The notes under the pieces were generated by a model, which worked only from the letters and a program-made list of their open reading frames with translations, searched no databases and had not been told where the DNA came from. DNA of 64,000 nucleotides. Origin: Acidobacteriaceae bacterium. Lineage in GTDB: Bacteria > Acidobacteriota > Terriglobia > Terriglobales > Acidobacteriaceae. The DNA lies in contig JANXYB010000050.1 in the NCBI GenBank assembly GCA_025350325.1, forward strand, positions 1-64,000, read 5' to 3'. The first letter of the stretch is position 1. Each line of letters starts with the position of its first letter. This document shows, in pieces, positions 8,545 to 25,294 of the stretch. Both the position numbers and the translations under genes were made by a program.

Positions 8545-10707
8545 TCAATACGTAGTCTTCACCTTCGGCTCGCGATCCCAGATACGGCCATTGGCTGCGG
8601 TTGAGAGGAATGCGTTTGCATCCCCGCCGACCACCACGCCCGCATCTGCGACTACGCCTGCTGCATCCAGCAATGGCTTCGCTCCCGCTGTTGCGCCGAT
8701 GACTTTGCAGTGTGCAAAAGCGTCATGCACCCAGCCCACGGCCGCTGCTTCTTTTGCCAGTGTCTTCGCGCCCTGATCTGAAACGGCGACATACACCGCG
8801 TCAAACAACACTGAGGCGGCACCCGCCAACTGCATATCGGCTTCGATTACCTTGCCATCTCCGCCCACTGCGCCGCCAACCTTGGGAGCCACAACGGCGA
8901 AGTCGGCGTTTGCCTTCTTCGCTGCCGACCGTAGTGATTGCACGACGCCGGCGTCGCTGCCGTCAGCGATCAGACAGCCCACCTTGCGGCCCTCAAACGT
9001 CTTCTTTGCCTTGCCAAGAATGCTCAAAGCTGGAGAAGGTTTCAAGTCCGTCCGCACCTTCACGGTCGTAGGTTGTGGCTCGATCGCACCCTGCATGCCA
9101 AGCCCGGCCGCTACACGCGTTGCGATCTTAGAATCGACGTTGGCAAGTTGGCCGACCATCCGCTCGCGCACCGCTTTGGTCTCAACCTTGCTCAATTCGA
9201 ATATGAACGCCGATATGATGTGGTTTTGCTCCGTCTCAGTCTGCGAGTAGAAGAACTGATATGCCTGCGAAAAGTGATCCGCAAAGGTTTCCGATCGGAT
9301 CTTCATCTTGCTGCCCTGCATCGGCTCGGCGTAGCTCACCAAACCCTTAGTGGGATCTGGCCTTGGCGAATCTGCCTGCAGAGAACTGGGCGAATAGTTG
9401 ACCCGGCCCTTCTGCAAACTCATCTGCATGTGCCCGTCGCGCTGCATATGCATCACCGGGCACTTGGGCGCATTTACTGGGATCTGGTTGAAATTCGGTC
9501 CGCCCAGTCGCGTGATCTGCGTGTCCAGATACGAGAAGATGCGTCCCTGCAGCAACGGATCGTTGGAGAAGTCCACGCCGGGAACGATATTCCGCACGCA
9601 GAACGCCGATTGCTCCGTCTCCGCAAAGAAGTTGTCCACGTTGCGATTCAACACCATGGTTCCGACAACCTTCAGCGGCAAAATTTCCTCCGGAATCAGC
9701 TTCGTCGCATCCAGCACGTCGAAGTCGAACTTATTAGCGAAGTCCTCGTCGAACAGCTGTACGCAGAATTCCCACTCGGGGAAGTTGCCTTCGGCAATGG
9801 CGTTCCAAAGATCGCGACGGTGGAAGTCAGGATCGGCGCCTGAAATCTTCAGAGCCTCGTCCCAGACCACCGATTGCATGCCAAGCTTTGGCCGCCAGTG
9901 GAACTTGACAAACGTCGCCTTGCCCTCTTCATTGATCAATCGATACGTGTGTACGCCAAAGCCTTCAATCATGCGCAGCGAGCGCGGAATGGCGCGGTCT
10001 GACATCGCCCACATCAGCATGTGCGTCGCTTCGGGCATCAATGAAGCAAAATCCCAAAAGCTGTCGTGCGCCGACGCTGCCTGCGGGAATCCGCGGTCGG
10101 GCTCCTGCTTCACTGCATGAACCAGGTCGGGAAATTTGATTGCGTCTTGAATAAAGAAAACGGGAATATTGTTTCCTACCAGGTCCCAATTACCTTCCTT
10201 GGTGTAGAACTTCACCGCAAAGCCACGCACGTCGCGCGCCATGTCGGTCGATCCTTCGTTCCCGGCTACGGTCGAGAACCGCACAAACACCGGCACTTCA
10301 ACGCCAACCTCATTGAAAATGGCAGCCCGCGAAATGCCCTTCAGCGGTGTCGCCAGCTTGAAATACCCGTGCGCACCAAAACCACGCGCATGCACGATGC
10401 GCTCAGGAATCCGTTCGTGGTCGAAGTGCTGAATTTTCTCGATCAGCAGGTGATCTTCGAGCAGCGTCGGGCCACGACGCCCGGCGCGCAGTGAATTTTC
10501 ATCATCGGAAATAATCGCGCCTGTCTGCGCGGTCATGGGGGGATGCGTACCGCCGGCGTTCTGGTGTGTTTCGCCTGCGTTGCCGGTCGTATGGTCTTCA
10601 AGTGAAGCTTTTTGGCCTTGATTTGTAAGTTTCACGTCTTGATTTTCAGGTTTTGCAGCATCTTTATTCGCGATCTCTGTCCGGGATTTCCGGGTCTTAT
10701 CCGCCAT
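8545..10707 (-). CDS. katE: large-subunit catalase (HPII/KatE type)
   Basis: A 720-residue clade-2 catalase that breaks hydrogen peroxide into water and oxygen in the cytoplasm. The catalytic His is in [12 protein letters not shown] (H106), the heme pocket in [14 protein letters not shown], and the proximal heme Tyr in [10 protein letters not shown] (about Y393). After the core, about 150 residues form the extra flavodoxin/DJ-1-like domain specific to large catalases. The first 70 residues are hydrophilic and poorly conserved. The start at 10707 is set by AAAGGAG 6 nt upstream; an in-frame upstream start at 10737 has no such site. It is monocistronic. Confidence 0.96.
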
Positions 10708-11278
10708 CTGTGGCTCCTTTGGGGTTTGGACTTTCAAGGCTGGTACGTCGGGAAGGGGGATTCAAGGTGAATCTCGGGGCAGACGTATACCAGAGCTCGA
10801 TGAGTCCGATGCGCTCAATCATAATCCTGTTGCCTTGCAGGCTCTACCGCAGCATCGGACTTGCTTATTGCCCGGTAAAAGTTTTGCACTGAGATTTTCA
10901 CGGAATAGTTCGTATCCTGAGATCCCCATCGCCGCGCTACGATGCAGGCATTTCTGGCCGCGTGCTGGGTGATCTAGGACCACACTGATCGGGGGCGAAT
11001 TATTCACTTCGCCCTGCATCAAGACCAGCTCTGCGATGATCGGAGTGGGAATCGTTATCGGGCCGGCACTCTTCTGTCCGGCACAGGTTGAGCAAAACCA
11101 CAAAGAATGGCAATTGCAATCTCGGCACGGGAGCGTGGTCCGCAGATCGTCATAAGGAATTCTAGTTTGCAGAATATTTGCGCCGACCAGCGTATTCTCA
11201 AAGTTCATACAACAAAGCGCGAATTGCCGACTCGACTTAAACCGCCGACTAAGACTCACTTAACCTCAATCGTGTCTA
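10708..11278. other. non-coding gap between katE and kdsA (first part)
   Basis: No recognisable gene. One minus-strand frame (10819-11208) starts at an ATG without a ribosome site and encodes a Cys-rich 129-residue product (CRDCNCHSLWFCSTC); it matches no family I know and may be chance. katE's promoter should lie near 10720-10800. The repeat element that follows is listed separately. Confidence 0.4.
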
Positions 11279-11385
11279 GACTCTGCGGCTAACTCGTTTG
11301 TGAACTAGACTTTAGCGGCGGCCACTCTCATCATCTATCTCATATTGAACGACTTCTATCCAGAGTAGGAGTGGGGGGTACCCCA
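11279..11385. repeat. dispersed intergenic element, copy 1
   Basis: It carries the blocks GACTCTGCGG (11279-11288), GACTTTA (11308-11314) and GACTTCTATCCAGAGTA (11351-11367), then a G-rich run. The same blocks with identical spacing recur at 23322-23428. ACTCTG at the left end can pair with CAGAGT at the right end. It sits just past the kdsA stop codon. The right edge also contains GGAGTGGGG/CCCCACTCC, a 9-bp stem. Confidence 0.65.
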
Positions 11386-11413
11386 CTCCGTCCCACGTAG
11401 TACACGGAGCCCG

Positions 11414-12232
11414 CTACCCGCCGGAAGCCGCGCGATGAATCGCCAGCAGCCTCTCCAGCAGCGGCTTCAGCAGTTTCAGATCGAGCGCGTTTGCCCCGTC
11501 CGACTTGGCCTGCGCCGGGTCGTCGTGCACCTCGAGAAACAGCCCGTCTACCCCTGCCGCAACTGCTGCGCGGGTCAGCAGCGGAATAAACTCCGGCTGA
11601 CCGCCACTCACTCCGTTGCCCGCCGACGGCTGCTGCACCGAGTGGGTGCCGTCAAAAACCACCGGCGTCATCTGCCGCATCACCGGCAGCGAACGATAAT
11701 CGACCACCAGCGTGTTGTAACCAAAACTCGCCCCGCGCTCCGTCAAGAACACCCGCTCGTTGCCCGTCGAACGCACCTTCTCAACCGGGTGCGTCATATC
11801 CCACGGCGCGACGAACTGGCCTTTTTTGATATTGACCGCGCGGCCCGTCTTGCCCGCGGCGACCAGCAGATCTGTCTGCCTGCACAAAAACGCCGGAATC
11901 TGCAGCACGTCCACCGCCTCAGCCGCGACCGCGCAGTGGCCCGGCTCATGCACGTCGGTCAGCACCGGCAATCCCGTATCCTTGGCCAGCCGGCCTAGAA
12001 TGCGCGTGCCCTCCACCAGTCCCGGCCCGCGAAAGCTCTTCACGCTGGTGCGGTTCGCCTTGTCGTAACTAGCTTTGAAGATGTAGGGAATACCGAGGTC
12101 GCTGGTGATGCGCTGGATCGCTTCGGCCATTCGCCGCACATGCGCTTCTGACTCGATTACGCACGGTCCGGCGATTAGAAACAGTCGCCCATCGCCTACG
12201 TGCACCGGCCCGATTTCAAATGAATGACTCAC
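11414..12232 (-). CDS. kdsA: 3-deoxy-8-phosphooctulonate synthase (KDO-8-phosphate synthase)
   Basis: Condenses phosphoenolpyruvate with arabinose 5-phosphate to KDO 8-phosphate, the first committed step of the KDO part of lipopolysaccharide. The 272-residue TIM barrel shows LIAGPCVIES at the start, KASYDKANRTS, the GLPVLTDVHEP stretch, and the KKGQFVAPWDM phosphate-binding motif. The start codon is GTG at 12232. It lies 67 bp after pyrG on the same strand, so the two are likely one operon. KDO needs CTP for activation, which makes the pairing with CTP synthase sensible. Its presence shows a Gram-negative outer membrane. Confidence 0.97.
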   Translation of the reverse strand: MSHSFEIGPVHVGDGRLFLIAGPCVIESEAHVRRMAEAIQRITSDLGIPYIFKASYDKANRTSVKSFRGPGLVEGTRILGRLAKDTGLPVLTDVHEPGHCAVAAEAVDVLQIPAFLCRQTDLLVAAGKTGRAVNIKKGQFVAPWDMTHPVEKVRSTGNERVFLTERGASFGYNTLVVDYRSLPVMRQMTPVVFDGTHSVQQPSAGNGVSGGQPEFIPLLTRAAVAAGVDGLFLEVHDDPAQAKSDGANALDLKLLKPLLERLLAIHRAASGG

Positions 12233-19342: not shown

Positions 19343-20698
19343 TTACTCGCGCACGCTGATTCCGAGCGCCTTCATCTTGCGGTAGAGATGGCTTCGCTCC
19401 AGGCCAAGCAGTTCGGCCGCACGGCTAACGTTATTGCGCGCTTCCTCGACCTTTTTCAAGATGAACTCTCGCTCGTAGGCATCCCTGGCCTGCTGCAACG
19501 TCGAAAATTCTTCCGTCGAGCGGGTTCCCGCCTTGTGGGTCAGCGGGGGCAGGTGCTTGCGCTCGATGCGCAGCGTGCGCGGGTTGAGAATCAGGACACG
19601 CTCGACGACGTTTTTCAATTCGCGCACGTTGCCAGGCCAGTGATACTGACCGAGCGCTGCGAGCGCTTCTTCACCAATCTCCATCCGAGGCCGGCCATAC
19701 TGGCGGCCAAATTCCGCCAAAAATTCCCGCACCAGCAGCGGAATATCCTGCTTGCGTTCACGCAACGGCGGCACAAAAAACGGAACCACATTCAGCCGGT
19801 AAAATAGGTCTTCGCGAAAGTTTCCCTTGGCAATCTCTTCTTCCAAGTCTTTGTTGGTTGCCGCGATCAGGCGCACATCGACGTGCAAGGGCTGGGTGCC
19901 GCCGACGGGTGTGAAGAGTTGATCGTCGAGCGCGCTGAGCATCTTGGCCTGCGTCTTGAGGCTCATGTCGCCCACTTCGTCCATAAAGAGCGTCCCGCCA
20001 TCGGCGCGTTCGAGAGTGCCACGCTGCTCAGGCGGGCCACCAGGCTGCGCACTATGGCGGTAGCCAAACAGCTCAGACTCAATATGCGCTTCAGGGATCG
20101 CAGCGCAGTTCAATTCGACAAAGACCCGATCGCGGCGCAGGCTCTCGGCGTGAATCGACCGCGCGATCAATTCCTTGCCCGTGCCGGATTCGCCGTAGAT
20201 AAGGACGCGGCCGTTGGTGGGAGCCATCAGGCGGATCTGCTGGCGCAGAGCCTTCAACGGTACGCTCTCGCCCGTCAACACCGATCCCACGCTGAACTGG
20301 CGCTTGAACTCAAGATTCTCATTGCGCATGCGCCGCGCTTCCACCGCATTCTTGAGCACGATCAGCGTGCGATCGAGCGACAGCGGCTTTTCGAGGAAGT
20401 CGTATGCGCCCAGTTTGGTCGCTTTCACCGCGGCTTCAATGGTGCCGTGCCCTGAAATGATCACTACTTCAGGGCGCTTCTCCGCTGCCAGCCCATGAAT
20501 ATCGGCCAGTACGTCGAGACCATCACGATCAGGAAGCCAGATGTCGAGCAGGACCACGTCATAGGGCGCGTCTTCAATGAGCACAAGCGCTTCGGCAGCC
20601 GTGGCCGCCGTTGCAACGCCGTATTCCTCTTCGCGCAGAATCTCTTCAAGAGAGGAGCGGATTTCTGCCTCGTCATCCACCACGAGGATGTGATTCAT
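19343..20698 (-). CDS. NtrX-like response regulator with AAA+ domain lacking the GAFTGA loop
   Basis: A 451-residue regulator. The receiver domain (1-120) has the phosphoacceptor D52 in VVLLDIW and an FLEKP motif. The AAA+ domain has Walker A GESGTGKE (169-176) and Walker B FMDEVGD (238-244). Where sigma-54 activators carry GAFTGA, this protein has FGYRHSAQPGGPPEQRG (about 211-227), so contact with sigma-54 is doubtful. A Fis-type helix-turn-helix ends the protein (NVSRAAELLGLERSHLYRKM). Its start codon overlaps the stop of the kinase gene by 4 bp (ATGA), so the pair is translationally coupled. Nitrogen or envelope signalling is possible, by analogy with NtrYX. Confidence 0.9.
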   Translation of the reverse strand: MNHILVVDDEAEIRSSLEEILREEEYGVATAATAAEALVLIEDAPYDVVLLDIWLPDRDGLDVLADIHGLAAEKRPEVVIISGHGTIEAAVKATKLGAYDFLEKPLSLDRTLIVLKNAVEARRMRNENLEFKRQFSVGSVLTGESVPLKALRQQIRLMAPTNGRVLIYGESGTGKELIARSIHAESLRRDRVFVELNCAAIPEAHIESELFGYRHSAQPGGPPEQRGTLERADGGTLFMDEVGDMSLKTQAKMLSALDDQLFTPVGGTQPLHVDVRLIAATNKDLEEEIAKGNFREDLFYRLNVVPFFVPPLRERKQDIPLLVREFLAEFGRQYGRPRMEIGEEALAALGQYHWPGNVRELKNVVERVLILNPRTLRIERKHLPPLTHKAGTRSTEEFSTLQQARDAYEREFILKKVEEARNNVSRAAELLGLERSHLYRKMKALGISVRE

Positions 20699-22971
20699 GA
20701 GCGTGCTCCCGTCCCTACGCTGAGGTCGTTCGCGGGTTGCTGCGTCGTCTCCATCAGCGGCAATCGCAGCAGAAAGCGGGCACCCTTGGGGCTGTTGCTC
20801 TCTGCACGAATCGAGCCACCAATTTCCTGCACAATCTTTGCCGCGATCGACAGACCGAGCCCCGTCCCGCGATGCTTGGTCGAGTAGAACGGCAAAAACA
20901 GCCGTTCGCGAATATCGTCGGTAAGACCATGGCCAGTATCGGCAACCATCACCTCCACCGCTGCGCCGTCCTCACTCAGGCCACTGCGAATGCTGAGCAC
21001 ACGTAGCAGGCCCCCTTGCATAGCCTCAGCGGCGTTGTCGATAAGGTTCGCCATCGCGCGCCGAATAGCTTCATGATCGGCCAGCACCATCGGAAGACCG
21101 GGTTCGAGATCGCGCTGCACCGTAATACCTTCGAGGCGTCCGGCAAATAAGGCCAGTGCCTCTTCGGCAACCGTATTCATGTCGCAGGGCCGTGGCTGCG
21201 GTGCGGGAAATTGCGCGAGCGCCGAGAACTGATCGACCAGCGTTCGCAGCGTACCGACACAAGTCAAAATCACCTCACTGCATTTGCGGATGATGGCAGG
21301 CGAATCGGGCTGTCCACGGTCCAGATGCTTCCCGATGCGCTCGGCAGATAGCGCGATCGGCGTAAGCGGATTTTTAATTTCATGTGCCACCCTCTGCGCC
21401 ACTTCTTTCCAGGCCAACTGGCGCTGCGCACGCAACAATTCCGAAGTGTCTTCAACCACCAGCACCGTGCCTGCCTTGCCATGCGCCAGTTCCAGCCGCG
21501 CGCTCGTCACCGCCAAGTGCATGGTGCGGCCGCGAAAATGAAATTCAATCTCAGTTGAGGCGGCACCCATGCGCTGACCGCGGCGCATCACCGCAGCTAG
21601 ATCGTCGACGGACTCAGCCGGCAACAGCGCGTCCAGCTTTTTCCCGCGCAGTCCAGCATTTTCGTCTTGGCCCATCAGCACCGCAAAGGCGCGATTGGCC
21701 TGGAGCACGATGCCTGCTCCATCCAGCGTGACCACGCCGGAAGGAATGGTTTCGACAATGGTCTCCAACTCGCGACGCCGCGCCTCGATTGCCAGGTTGG
21801 CTGCCGTGAGCTGCGCTGAAGAGCTCTCAGCCAACTGGCGGCTGGCATCCAGATCGGCGGCCATGTGATTGAACGAGCGCACCAACTCCGCCATTTCCCC
21901 GGTCGTGACCAGCGCCACGCGGTGCTCATACTTGCCTGCTGCGATCTCATTCATAGCCTCGGCCAGCGCTTCGACCGGTCGCGTGATTTGCTTTGACAAG
22001 AACAAAGCCAGCCATACGCTGGAGAAAAAAACGACGACCGTGATCAGCAGCAGCATTAAAAAGAACGTGGCCCGGATGCTGTTGCGCGTGCGAAACAAAT
22101 TCCAATACTCAGCCGCGCCCGAGCGAATTCGTTTGGCCGTCGAACTCAGCCCCTGGGGCATGGGCAGCGCAGCTACAACGATCTTGCCGGAGTTCGAAAC
22201 CCCCATCCCGAGCGCATATTCCTGACCTGCTATTTCCAGTACGGGTTCTCCACTGCGCTGTGCGGTTTGCAGAAGGTTGATTGAGAGTGGACCTTTCAAC
22301 GGAGAGGCTTTTTCCTGCCCGTCTTCGCTCAGCCAAGGGACTAAGTTAGCCTGCCTCGATTCGGGCGGCGCGCCAAACTCAGACAGCACTTTCCGATCTT
22401 TGCCGTAGACCACGACGAAGCCGCCATCGAGCGTAATGCCGTGTGAAGCGAGCACGGATTGAATTTCAGGCGAGCCAGTGTCCGCAGCACTCGTAGCCGC
22501 AATGGATTGAGCCTCTCCACGCGCGTTGCCCGCCACGTATTCCGCTAGTTCGAGCACCACGCGGGTTGAGTCTTGCCGCAGTTCCGACGTGTTCGGCGAA
22601 AACCAGCGGTCCAGCGACCGGTTCATCAATTGAAAACTGAATAGGAACATAAAGACCGCAGGCGTCAATGCAATCAGCGCCGCGCCTAACACCATGCGCG
22701 TCCGCAACCGCGCACCCAAAGCGCTGCTGCTCTGTCCGGCGTACAGTTTCAAAATGTTCCGTAGCAACAACAGCAGAAGCACGATCAGCAGCAAAAACAC
22801 CACGACCGTAAGACCGGTAAAAGCCAGCGTCTCACCGGACGTTTCCGGAGTTAAGAACCTGACTTTGCTGGTGTTGAAGGCCTGCAGTCCGCCCAGCAAA
22901 GCAAAAAACAGCAAAACGCCGGCTCCTAAAAAATACACCGACCGCCGCCGTGAATCGCCGCCGAAAAGCAT
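20695..22971 (-). CDS. NtrY-like membrane sensor histidine kinase
   Basis: A 758-residue sensor. Three membrane helices are near residues 12-30, 45-70 and 95-118, then a periplasmic sensor region of about 180 residues, a fourth helix (about 302-327), a HAMP linker, a PAS domain, a phosphoacceptor helix AHEIKNPLTPIALSAERI (His about 530) and an ATPase domain with NLIDNAAEA, DTGHG and GTGLGLSI motifs. This is the NtrY layout. It is the first gene of a two-gene operon with the response regulator. The signal is unknown. Confidence 0.93.
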   Translation of the reverse strand: MLFGGDSRRRSVYFLGAGVLLFFALLGGLQAFNTSKVRFLTPETSGETLAFTGLTVVVFLLLIVLLLLLLRNILKLYAGQSSSALGARLRTRMVLGAALIALTPAVFMFLFSFQLMNRSLDRWFSPNTSELRQDSTRVVLELAEYVAGNARGEAQSIAATSAADTGSPEIQSVLASHGITLDGGFVVVYGKDRKVLSEFGAPPESRQANLVPWLSEDGQEKASPLKGPLSINLLQTAQRSGEPVLEIAGQEYALGMGVSNSGKIVVAALPMPQGLSSTAKRIRSGAAEYWNLFRTRNSIRATFFLMLLLITVVVFFSSVWLALFLSKQITRPVEALAEAMNEIAAGKYEHRVALVTTGEMAELVRSFNHMAADLDASRQLAESSSAQLTAANLAIEARRRELETIVETIPSGVVTLDGAGIVLQANRAFAVLMGQDENAGLRGKKLDALLPAESVDDLAAVMRRGQRMGAASTEIEFHFRGRTMHLAVTSARLELAHGKAGTVLVVEDTSELLRAQRQLAWKEVAQRVAHEIKNPLTPIALSAERIGKHLDRGQPDSPAIIRKCSEVILTCVGTLRTLVDQFSALAQFPAPQPRPCDMNTVAEEALALFAGRLEGITVQRDLEPGLPMVLADHEAIRRAMANLIDNAAEAMQGGLLRVLSIRSGLSEDGAAVEVMVADTGHGLTDDIRERLFLPFYSTKHRGTGLGLSIAAKIVQEIGGSIRAESNSPKGARFLLRLPLMETTQQPANDLSVGTGARS

Positions 22972-23321
22972 GGGGCGATTATAGGCGCTGGGAGAAATGG
23001 GCCTACTACAGAGTGCAGCCTTAGTAGCTTGGTGAAAACATCCATTTACTCAATACTCTCGCGACTCACGAAATCATCCGACCGAACACATAGCAACCAC
23101 CCGTGATAACCATCGAAATAAACAAGCTCTTCATACCAACCTGATTTGGCCTGCCTGCTATTTGCAGACTATTTCCCCGCAATCACTATCCTTGGTTGTG
23201 AGGGGATTATGAGGGGAGTTTTGAGGGATAATTAGCCGACGAATTCCTGTGTTAAGAAAAACTAGTTGTCGTTCCTTCTGTGCGAACCCACTCAAAGCGC
23301 CAGTAACTTCTTTACTCAGAG
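22972..23321. other. gap upstream of the ntrY-like gene
   Basis: About 350 bp with no supported gene. The ntrY-like promoter should be near 22980-23100 on the minus strand. A purine-rich stretch near 23199-23232 (GAGGGGATTATGAGGGGAG) repeats GAGGGG twice; its meaning is unclear. Confidence 0.4.
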
Positions 23322-23428
23322 GACTCTGCGGATAAGTCTTTTAATAGAACGACTTTACTGCATGAGGCAAACTGCAATTCGCTGAAAACAAATGACTTCT
23401 ATCCAGAGTACGGGTGGGGGTGGGGTGG
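23322..23428. repeat. dispersed intergenic element, copy 2
   Basis: GACTCTGCGG (23322-23331), GACTTTA (23351-23357) and GACTTCTATCCAGAGTA (23394-23410) occur with the same distances as in the copy at 11279-11385, followed by a G-rich run. As in copy 1, the element lies just beyond the stop codon of a minus-strand gene (ald), and its ends can pair (ACTCTG with CAGAGT). Confidence 0.65.
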
Positions 23429-23465
23429 CAGAGACGCGCGACAAGCGGTCGTTGCCATGCCGCCA

Positions 23466-24581
23466 CTATGCAATCAAGCTCTCTGCCGCGGTCCACGAGC
23501 GCTGCTGGCTCTCAGCCACGCCGCGATGCGTCAGTTGGCCCATCCATGTGTTCAGCCCTTCTGCGAACCCTGGGTCCTGCTTGAGTGCCTCGCGCGCGCC
23601 CTTGTTAGCGATGCGCATCAGGTATGGGAAGGTTGAGTTGGTCAACGCTAACGTGGAAGTATGCGGCACCGCTCCCGGCATATTGGTCACGCAATAATGC
23701 ACCACGCCATCGACCACGTAACTTGGATTCGAGTGCGATGTGGGTCGCGCTGTCTCGACGCATCCACCCTGATCGATGGCAACATCGACAATCACTGCAC
23801 CCTTTTTCATCGCGGAGACCATGGCGCGGGTCACGATCTTTGGCGCCGTCGCACCGGGAATCAGCACTCCGCCGATCACGAGATCCGCCTCGCGCGTGGC
23901 ATGCTCCACGTTGTAGCTGTTCGAGGCAAGTGTATAAAGCCGACCGCCAAAAATATCGTCCAGTTCGCGCAGCCGGTTCAGGTTGACATCGACCAGCGTT
24001 ACCTTAGCGCCAAATCCCAGCGCGATTTTTGCTGCGTTGGTTCCGACAATGCCACCACCAATAATGGCCACGTGTGCAGGCGGAACACCCGGTACCCCAC
24101 CCAGCAGAATGCCGCGCCCGCCCCGTTCTTTTTCAAGATAGGTCGCACCGACCTGCACGCTCATGCGGCCGGCGACTTCACTCATCGGCGTCAGCAGCGG
24201 CAGCGTACCCTCGCGGTCGCGCACCGTTTCATAGGCAATGCCGATGACCTTTGACTCAAGTAACTTGTCGGTCAGGCCCTTAACCGGCGCCAAATGCAAA
24301 TAAGTAAAAAGCACCAGCCCCTCGCGAAAGAATGCATACTCTTTCTCGATCGGCTCCTTCACCTTGACCACGGTTTCCGACTTGCCCCAGACGTATCCAG
24401 CCTCGCCTACAATTTCTGCGCCGGCATTTTGATATTCCGCGTCGACAAAACCGGACTGCTCGCCCGCCAAGGTCTCGACGAGCACCTTGTGGCCGGCCTC
24501 GGTAAGCGCCTTCACGCCTGCTGGAGTAACACCCACGCGCGCTTCGTTGTCTTTAATTTCTTTGGGAACGCCAATGATCAT
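23466..24581 (-). CDS. ald: alanine dehydrogenase
   Basis: NAD-dependent oxidative deamination of L-alanine to pyruvate and ammonia, reversible. The 371-residue protein begins MIIGVPKEIKDNEARVGVTP, has the substrate Lys in VVKVKEP, the catalytic His in YLHLAPVKGLTD, and a Rossmann motif GGGIVGTNAA. The start is fixed at ATG 24581 by AGGAG 8 nt upstream; a longer open frame to 24869 would run through the intergenic region and is not family-like. It diverges from an Lrp-type regulator, a common arrangement in which the regulator responds to alanine or another amino acid. The intergenic inverted repeat is a candidate operator. Confidence 0.96.
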   Translation of the reverse strand: MIIGVPKEIKDNEARVGVTPAGVKALTEAGHKVLVETLAGEQSGFVDAEYQNAGAEIVGEAGYVWGKSETVVKVKEPIEKEYAFFREGLVLFTYLHLAPVKGLTDKLLESKVIGIAYETVRDREGTLPLLTPMSEVAGRMSVQVGATYLEKERGGRGILLGGVPGVPPAHVAIIGGGIVGTNAAKIALGFGAKVTLVDVNLNRLRELDDIFGGRLYTLASNSYNVEHATREADLVIGGVLIPGATAPKIVTRAMVSAMKKGAVIVDVAIDQGGCVETARPTSHSNPSYVVDGVVHYCVTNMPGAVPHTSTLALTNSTFPYLMRIANKGAREALKQDPGFAEGLNTWMGQLTHRGVAESQQRSWTAAESLIA

Positions 24582-24641
24582 TTCGCTGACTCCTGGGTCG
24601 TGGGATGATGGGCGGCGAGAAGGAATGCTCAACAGACTTCT

Positions 24642-24683
24642 GCGCGCCGGATGGTATCTGGGGAGGCCCTGTGGCCGGCGCGC
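24642..24683. promoter_or_regulatory. 9-bp inverted repeat between ald and the Lrp-type gene
   Basis: GCGCGCCGG (24642-24650) and CCGGCGCGC (24675-24683) are perfect inverted copies 33 bp apart centre to centre, about three helical turns. This suits cooperative binding by an oligomeric regulator such as an Lrp octamer. It could also be a hairpin in the ald leader RNA. Confidence 0.45.
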
Positions 24684-24766
24684 TTCTTTCACTGGCTTCC
24701 AACTCCAACACATCCTACGGCGCGAAGGGATTCCAATGCGTGCAAATTTGGTGGTAGAACTGGCTA

Positions 24767-25294
24767 ATGAGAACGAAGCGTGACAAAGTAGGGTCGTCAG
24801 CGCAAGAAACGCCCATTCAAACGCGCAAGCTTCGCGAGCAAGCGGAATTAGACGAGCTGGACGCTGCAATCCTCGGCTATTTGGCAGGTCACGGCCGCGC
24901 TACAAATTACGAAGTGGGGGAAGCAGTTGGGCTATCCGCTTCAGCGGCTTCGCGGCGCATTCAGTCTCTCGAGAACGCCGGAGCCATTCGCGGCTACCAG
25001 GCTCTGGTCGATGACCGCCTGCTGGGCAAACGAATGACGGTTTACATCCGTGTCACTTTGGAGCGCCAGTCGGCGGCGGTGCTCGGAGCCTTTGAATCGG
25101 CAGTTCGCCATTGTAAGGAAATAGTTAGCTGCCACCTCATGGCTGGCCAGTACGACTACATGCTCGTAGCCAGAGTGACCGGCATTGAAGACTACGGCCA
25201 CCTGCACCAAAACGAGCTTTCACGATTGCCCGGCGTCACCCGACTTGAAACCAGCTTCGCCCTCCGCGACGTGCTGGAGAGCGGCCGCACTTAG
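24767..25294 (+). CDS. Lrp/AsnC family transcriptional regulator
   Basis: A 175-residue regulator. After a basic tail of about 25 residues come a winged helix-turn-helix (LDAAILGYLAGHGRATNYEV, recognition helix SASAASRRIQSLENAG) and an effector-binding RAM domain (VIRVTLERQ-like strand, CHLMAGQYDYMLVARV). It is transcribed divergently from ald, 185 bp away, and probably regulates it in response to an amino acid. The basic N-terminal extension is longer than in E. coli Lrp. Confidence 0.92.
   Translation: MRTKRDKVGSSAQETPIQTRKLREQAELDELDAAILGYLAGHGRATNYEVGEAVGLSASAASRRIQSLENAGAIRGYQALVDDRLLGKRMTVYIRVTLERQSAAVLGAFESAVRHCKEIVSCHLMAGQYDYMLVARVTGIEDYGHLHQNELSRLPGVTRLETSFALRDVLESGRT

Follow-up and report, generated by a model that had tools for sequence, protein, structure and literature searches.

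A dispersed intergenic repeat of Acidobacteriaceae that recurs as the leader of a small gene encoding a Cys/His-motif protein

The window analysed here, a 64,000-nucleotide stretch of an Acidobacteriaceae genome, contains two copies of an intergenic element which are probably solo members of a dispersed Acidobacteriaceae repeat paired with a small gene, the protein of which would bind its own leader, control its own synthesis and spread the repeat. The parts of this reading differ in strength: the tie between the dispersed repeats and one gene family is well supported; recognition of the leader by the protein is likely, judging from the cognate pairing of genes with repeats and from the position of the element; mobilisation of the repeat by the protein is a proposal. 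In short, we read the system as a REPIN/RAYT-like dispersed repeat whose partner is no Y1 transposase, and whose mode of spread we infer.

A sequence-only reading of the window had described three short blocks (here b1, b2 and b3) that occur twice at the same spacing. The block starts (Table 1) proved exact, as did the distances of 29 and 43 nt in both copies, and ACTCTG at the left end is complementary to CAGAGT at the right end as proposed, b1 and b3 covarying as complements. That the resemblance is not due to chance also holds: allowing up to 3 mismatches, the 17-mer GACTTCTATCCAGAGTA occurs twice in the window, while 100 shuffles gave a mean of 0.07 and none with two occurrences. Gene identification likewise bore out that both copies adjoin the 3' ends of minus-strand genes, kdsA and ald. 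Two statements had to be amended. A G-rich run is indeed present next to both copies, but it belongs to the unit and is not a neighbour of it; and the shared element is real, but the proposed extent of 107 nt is too short, as the unit measures about 122-126 nt in all copies and about 250-300 nt in the subfamily represented in the window. Copy 2 contains an imperfect inverted repeat of 20 nt (23323-23342 with 23390-23409; 75% complementary, 47 nt between the arms). In neither window copy was an inverted pair, of the kind expected of terminal inverted repeats, found at the unit ends. In copy 1, as well as in L017 (C113) and L052 (C114), the G-run runs on into GGTACC and a C-run to give a short hairpin; other copies have plain G-run ends.

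Table 1. Coordinates of the two element copies, their parts and the neighbouring genes in the window.
Feature	Position	Strand	Remarks
Copy 1, full extent matching subfamily sequence model R1	11113..11397	+	142.7 bits, E 1.5e-41
Copy 1, 126-nt core	11256..11381	+	alignment A3; R2 match at L263, 89.5 bits
Copy 1, left block b1 GACTCTGCGG	11279..11288	+	ACTCTG complementary to b3
Copy 1, middle block b2 GACTTTA	11308..11314	+	direct repeat of b1, 29 nt on
Copy 1, right block b3 GACTTCTATCCAGAGTA	11351..11367	+	contains inverted copy CAGAGT
Copy 1, G-run	11368..11389	+	within 9-bp inverted repeat GGAGTGGGG GGTA CCCCACTCC
kdsA (3-deoxy-8-phosphooctulonate synthase)	11414..12232	-	3' end toward copy 1 G-run
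Catalase HPII-like gene, other side of copy 1	8545..10737	-	best model, below curated cut-off
Copy 2, full extent matching R1	23123..23439	+	218.2 bits, E 1.2e-64
Copy 2, 126-nt core	23299..23424	+	127.5 bits, E 2.1e-27
Copy 2, left block b1	23322..23331	+	
Copy 2, middle block b2	23351..23357	+	
Copy 2, right block b3	23394..23410	+	with b1, part of 20-nt imperfect inverted repeat
Copy 2, G-run CGGGTGGGGGTGGGG	23411..23425	+	
Alanine dehydrogenase gene (ald)	23466..24869	-	3' end toward copy 2 G-run
Sensor histidine kinase (HK) gene	20695..22971	-	several relatives have ald next to it, across a short element-free gap

The whole-genome search that had been suggested for the three-block pattern yielded 6 occurrences in the 4.49-Mb host genome and 0 for the reversed-pattern control, and the 17-mer of the right block was found 8 times. 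A sequence-only model built from 8 copies (R1) detected at least 58 matches at 57 places, a lower bound as 150 of 249 candidates were scored; 57 matches had E-values below 1e-4 and one of 0.012, and one match was the second piece of another copy. Three of the 58, in which the right block was not recognised by the pattern (C80:120, C68:35312 and C79:61063), were left out before alignment; of the remaining 55, three cut by contig ends and the weak C49:25026 stayed unaligned, leaving 51 copies. Block spacing is identical in 48 of these 51, which align gapless over 126 nt, and the other 3 have one extra base, with the reservation that copies with other spacing could sit among the rows dropped before the alignment. 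The unit common to the aligned copies starts at TAAC, about 107 nt upstream of the right block's end, and finishes about 15 nt after it in the G-run, which it includes. The aligned copies fall into two subfamilies, one of 31 copies with GACTCTG, GACTTTA and CAGAGTA or close forms, sharing an extra upstream stretch to about -250, and one of 20 copies with ATTTCTG, ATTTTTA and CAGAAAT or close forms. Both window copies belong to the first, copy 1 standing by eye in a side group with C113 and C148. Judged from crude ORF calls the copies are extragenic, and in 34 of 52 cases, by similarly crude gene calls, a gene 3' end lies at the G-run side.

Several first-subfamily copies (L019, L078, L081, L084, L085 and L089) have about 60-90 nt more in common after the G-run (GCAGTTGTTGAGC...GGCACACTGAT), so that the unit apparently also occurs in a longer form. 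Two copies near contig ends, L058 (C98:116) and L076 (C36:10973), are near-identical including their flanks and represent a segmental duplication or an assembly duplicate; no copy pair recent enough to catch a jump was detected. A tblastn search for gene remnants behind the solo copies, covering 55 copies, returned the two intact genes only. By eye, the flanks of C25:2, C96 and C99 resemble decayed gene starts.

The partner gene appears as an open frame starting M..ECRHIMPNG.KC downstream of several element copies. Its product, of about 156 aa, carries a Cys/His motif (CRHI..NG.KC....YCYFH) at the N-terminus, followed by a helical central region; many members also have an acidic tail. Searches of four partner proteins against Pfam and NCBIfam returned nothing beyond one weak sub-threshold match in one of the four, and no Y1_Tnp; a PDB profile search gave no match, and no transposase, nuclease or recombinase motif was found with Pfam, NCBIfam, PDB or Foldseek. 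The predicted fold (mean pLDDT 78.5, pTM 0.55) had a best, non-significant Foldseek E-value of 1.7 and a best VIA-align Z of 6.3 over 43 residues, within the range that VIA-align calls common. The best PHROGs match, to an unnamed family, reached E 4e-4 for 2 of 27 members. The gene is present in 28 of 59 genomes of the genus (60 matches) and in 22 of 297 genomes of a phylum sample covering Acidobacteriota, all of them in the same single family. It was also seen in bog MAGs titled Verrucomicrobia and Rhodanobacteraceae (L234, L242, L258 and L261), which are perhaps misnamed or mixed bins, given that the phylum sample, drawn from Acidobacteriota, yielded the gene in a single family. The host genome has two intact genes, which are 43% identical to each other.

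The element lies directly upstream of this gene, on the same strand, in 18 of 29 evaluable loci at E<=0.01 and in 23 of 29 at E<=1, the remaining 6 loci showing no adjacent element match; the sample consisted of 30 loci chosen from the 60 gene matches, taking the top one per genome and two more, and one of them, L182, is cut by a contig end. This leader element lies 2-112 nt from the gene start, its G-run usually within about 25 nt of the start codon. Over the named gene loci, a G-run was found no more than 60 nt upstream of the start in 33 of 52, while 7 of 59 gave no start. As a control, 30 kdsA loci contained one element match, the window's own, and this lies downstream of the gene.

Element and gene also tend to occur in the same genomes. 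With a 126-position model at E<=0.01, the element was found in 36 of 79 sampled genomes of the genus, host included. Among the 59 genomes shared by both searches, 26 contained both, 4 the element only (G022, G031, G036 and G045 at threshold, two of them <80% complete), 2 the gene only (G015 and G023) and 27 neither (Fisher p 2e-10); at >=90% completeness the corresponding counts were 14/2/2/15 (p 2e-5). Because the gene's own leader itself counts as an element match, and is the sole match in at least 3 of the 26 co-occurring genomes (G003, G004 and G010), stricter counts were used, requiring either >=2 element matches (20/4/8/27, p 5e-6) or more element matches than genes (19/4/9/27, p 2e-5). 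All these p-values are too small, since related genomes are not independent and no correction for phylogeny was applied; even so, the weaker count obtained with >=2 matches is still well apart from chance, and the physical link between gene and element does not depend on the p-values.

A more specific pairing is apparent within the host genome, where one of the two genes has a subfamily 1 leader and the other a subfamily 2 leader. The 49 other aligned copies split 30/19 by closeness to these leaders: 30 solo copies are nearer the C150 leader (mean identity 0.70 vs 0.56) and 19 nearer the C109 leader (0.73 vs 0.53). The same analysis, for which 3 leaders were added, covered 88 copies from genomes with three or more; 81 of these had their closest relative within their own genome, as did 30 of 37 when the host's own genome was left out, against a fraction of 0.30 in shuffles. 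Of the 69 forward matches found in other genomes, 49 are exactly 126 nt long and entered the RNAalifold, long-hairpin and covariation analyses; the other 20 measure 123-138 nt, so that spacing is less strict outside the host's own genome.

We then compared the sites of solo copies with those of relatives. The gap between the HK and ald genes measures 482 nt here; both genes were matched on one contig in 18 relatives, in 10 of which the gap is under 200 nt (9, 79, 83, 123, 134, 143, 165, 167, 196 and 199 nt; one partial match) and in 8 of which it spans 311-2416 nt. Seven of the short gaps were read in sequence, and of 30 ald loci searched with the element model, one matched, namely the window's own. 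At a second locus the gap is 539 nt here vs 111, 151 and 204 nt in G034, G008 and G024, and 1136-5846 nt in 7 other relatives; the element is again present in 1 of 30 loci, the host's own. Two solo copies thus sit where several syntenic relatives lack the element. Intergenic regions differ for other reasons too, since other relatives have longer gaps at both loci, and the flanks of the relatives are so diverged that neither a target-site duplication nor an exact junction was readable at the two loci. The kdsA locus was unusable as an empty-site test, the neighbour beyond the element not being found in the 29 other loci. In two other genomes (G046:C163:16487-16612 and G051:C122:17628-17753) an element likewise lies 0.4-0.6 kb past the kdsA stop codon with its G-run toward kdsA, so that some element sites may be old or preferred.

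In genomes labelled Edaphobacter or Granulicella, the gene leaders differ in sequence and have a similar plan, namely AAGTCC, often TAAGTC, then GACTTTG and a G-run before the ATG. A model of 16 such leaders found at least 103, 103, 43, 29, 17, 8 and 8 matches in seven gene-bearing genomes of another genus of the family, 5 and 0 in two genomes of that genus that are devoid of the gene, 1 weak match in the host genome, and 0 in the gene-bearing G316 and G171 of other genera as well as in G056, G332 and G103, all counts being lower bounds with 150 candidates scored per genome. In four other-genus leaders (L231, L240, L243 and L257) the TTTTCTTTTGAAGACTTTG block is immediately preceded by a long hairpin, such as ATGACCTTTGTCC...GGACTAAGGTCAT, the arms of which vary between genomes and look complementary by eye. 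We also determined the strand of the solo copies, using the matches listed (53 of 103 in G388, 50 of 103 in G340 and 22 of 43 in G308, minus gene leaders) and rough replichore limits based on 20 samples per genome. In the single-contig genome G388, 39 of 50 listed solo copies have their G-run on the strand that GC skew suggests to be lagging; the bias is absent or weak in G340 (30 of 48 on the largest contig, 5 listed matches on other contigs being left out) and in G308 (11 of 19). The coding share on the presumed leading strand was 0.56 in G388, 0.41 in G340 and 0.55 in G308, and the low value makes the replichore assignment of G340 doubtful.

The three blocks change together between subfamilies and between genomes at fixed spacing. 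On average, b1 is identical to the reverse complement of b3 at 5.78 of 7 positions (shuffled 4.76, sd 0.08), b1 to b2 at 4.94 (shuffled 3.75) and b2 to b3 at 4.33 (shuffled 3.57; n = 100 throughout), values that partly reflect lineage structure, which the shuffles leave in. Further copies and b1/b3 covariation, the two findings on which the sequence-only reading had made its case depend, were both obtained. That reading had offered a structured RNA or a folded mobile repeat: the evidence speaks well for a dispersed repeat whose sites are lineage-specific, and does not support a stable RNA. A structured RNA, in which the leader would act in cis on the gene and the solo copies would make small RNAs, would draw on (i) b1:b3 pairing kept through double changes, two columns changing on both sides in 20 and 14 of the 51 sequences and a third in 1, (ii) the b1:b3 helix predicted by RNAalifold on the 51 own copies (A3; -3.15 kcal/mol), and (iii) covariation of AAGT[C/A] with [G/T]ACTT in other-genus copies (19/7/1/7, p 0.004), where a few rows may be given the wrong partner by the pattern. 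We nevertheless consider it very unlikely, and RNA structure was rejected as the main explanation: the folding energies of 7 copies are within 2.1 sd of shuffles (z -0.15 to -2.09), RNAalifold returned no structure on the 49 foreign or 100 pooled sequences and -0.7 kcal/mol in another run on the own set, Rfam gave 0 matches in the window at gathering and 0 at E<=1 in 9 loci, and within each subfamily no helix was among the top covarying pairs. In the own genome the b1:b3 changes, which the direct repeat b2 also undergoes, distinguish the two subfamilies and may go back to a single event. A stem between b1 and b3, whose arms of 6-7 nt lie 75 nt apart, would explain these two blocks but not by itself b2, which also follows; recognition of three sites by a single protein would account for all of them. 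The 20-nt inverted repeat of copy 2 and the 9-bp G-run hairpin of copy 1 are not common to the two copies. Reverse-strand matches of the model, seen in 10 of 69 sources, and the inverted repeat of copy 2 hinted at a longer hairpin (AACTC..TTTTC with GAAAA..AATT), but its arms did not stay paired in register across the alignment.

Two further explanations give the protein another role. If it were a regulator or a chromosome organiser, the elements would be binding sites that spread by ancient duplication and persist because of a regulatory or structural function, with the leader serving autoregulation; the concerted change of three copies of one short motif, as expected of the binding sites of one protein, the leader position at most gene loci, and the acidic tail with the Cys/His motif all agree with this. 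The copies, however, have an entire sharp-ended unit of about 122-300 nt in common and not a set of short sites, the sites are not kept between related genomes at the two loci compared, and the G-run side faces a gene 3' end, not a promoter, in the majority of the crudely called cases, so that we hold this explanation to be unlikely. An unrelated transposase, of the Y1 type or from an IS, might instead move the repeats, with the small gene as a passenger or regulator living in the element. The protein has no recognisable enzyme domain and the host genome contains 3 matches to Y1_Tnp, the transposase family searched, yet no element match lies in the loci of these 3 genes, and the two genes for two subfamilies together with the co-occurrence point to the gene itself; we regard this as distinctly unlikely.

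Compared with known systems, the arrangement most resembles REPINs and RAYTs, in which each repeat group adjoins its own gene in genomes with several groups (PMC3116915). As there, we find tens to hundreds of short extragenic repeats with strict internal distances and an inverted block pair, and each gene has its own repeat group (2 genes, 2 subfamilies, 30/19 solo copies, in the one genome followed in full). The differences are that the gene here is not a Y1/HUH tyrosine transposase by Pfam; that the unit, at about 122-300 nt, exceeds a REPIN in length and combines two direct blocks, one inverted block and a G-run; that the repeat, as the leader of the gene, is found upstream only; and that the system is found, in our phylum sample, in one family of Acidobacteriota. 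REPINs are recognised by a short (20-40 bp) palindrome with a GTAG or CGTC tag; the inverted sequences seen here are the b1 and b3 arms, the imperfect 20-nt repeat of copy 2 and the 9-bp hairpin of copy 1. As the partner gene does not pass the defining RAYT test, the system works like REPIN/RAYT but is not one. MITEs and other non-autonomous repeats are short, non-coding, present in many copies and located at lineage-specific sites. The element shares these features, but unlike MITEs it shows no terminal inverted repeats at both ends and no parent transposase that we could find; a target duplication was not readable in the diverged flanks. With IS200/IS605-type elements, which move as single-stranded DNA (PMC6006769), it shares inverted blocks near one end, and one genome hints at a lagging-strand link as well; unlike these, it is not found beside the three Y1_Tnp matches of its host. 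The acidobacterial TIRYT genes, tyrosine transposases with flanking repeats (PMC3733652), are similar in having repeats beside a gene and in belonging to the same phylum, but the gene studied here has no tyrosine transposase Pfam match. Our word-based literature search, which can miss an unnamed mention, found no paper on such a repeat or protein.

Returning to the REPIN/RAYT-like reading, the protein would use the three blocks (b1 and b2 direct, b3 inverted) to bind its own leader and in this way control its own synthesis; b1 and b3 could also pair in single-stranded DNA. Directly or with a host enzyme, it would also get the same sequence inserted or copied into intergenic DNA, often near gene 3' ends. 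The bias of 39/50 in one closed genome of another genus would fit single-stranded spread at the replication fork, the two other genomes being unclear. A bolder version, which we put forward tentatively as a possibility, is that the Cys/His protein itself represents an undescribed kind of factor able to mobilise or copy DNA, which would recognise the three-block unit of its own leader, perhaps single-stranded at the replication fork, and would have seeded separate repeat populations in different Acidobacteriaceae genera; this would amount to a second, independent REPIN/RAYT arrangement devoid of a Y1 transposase.

Should the protein indeed cause its own leader to spread, this would be a bacterial gene-plus-repeat system that relies on none of the known transposase families. 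It would assign a role to proteins that lie outside the Pfam, NCBIfam and PDB matches obtained here, and the presence of two paralogous genes and two repeat subfamilies in one genome makes its specificity directly testable. It would also explain the tens to about a hundred intergenic repeats present in some genomes of these common soil bacteria.
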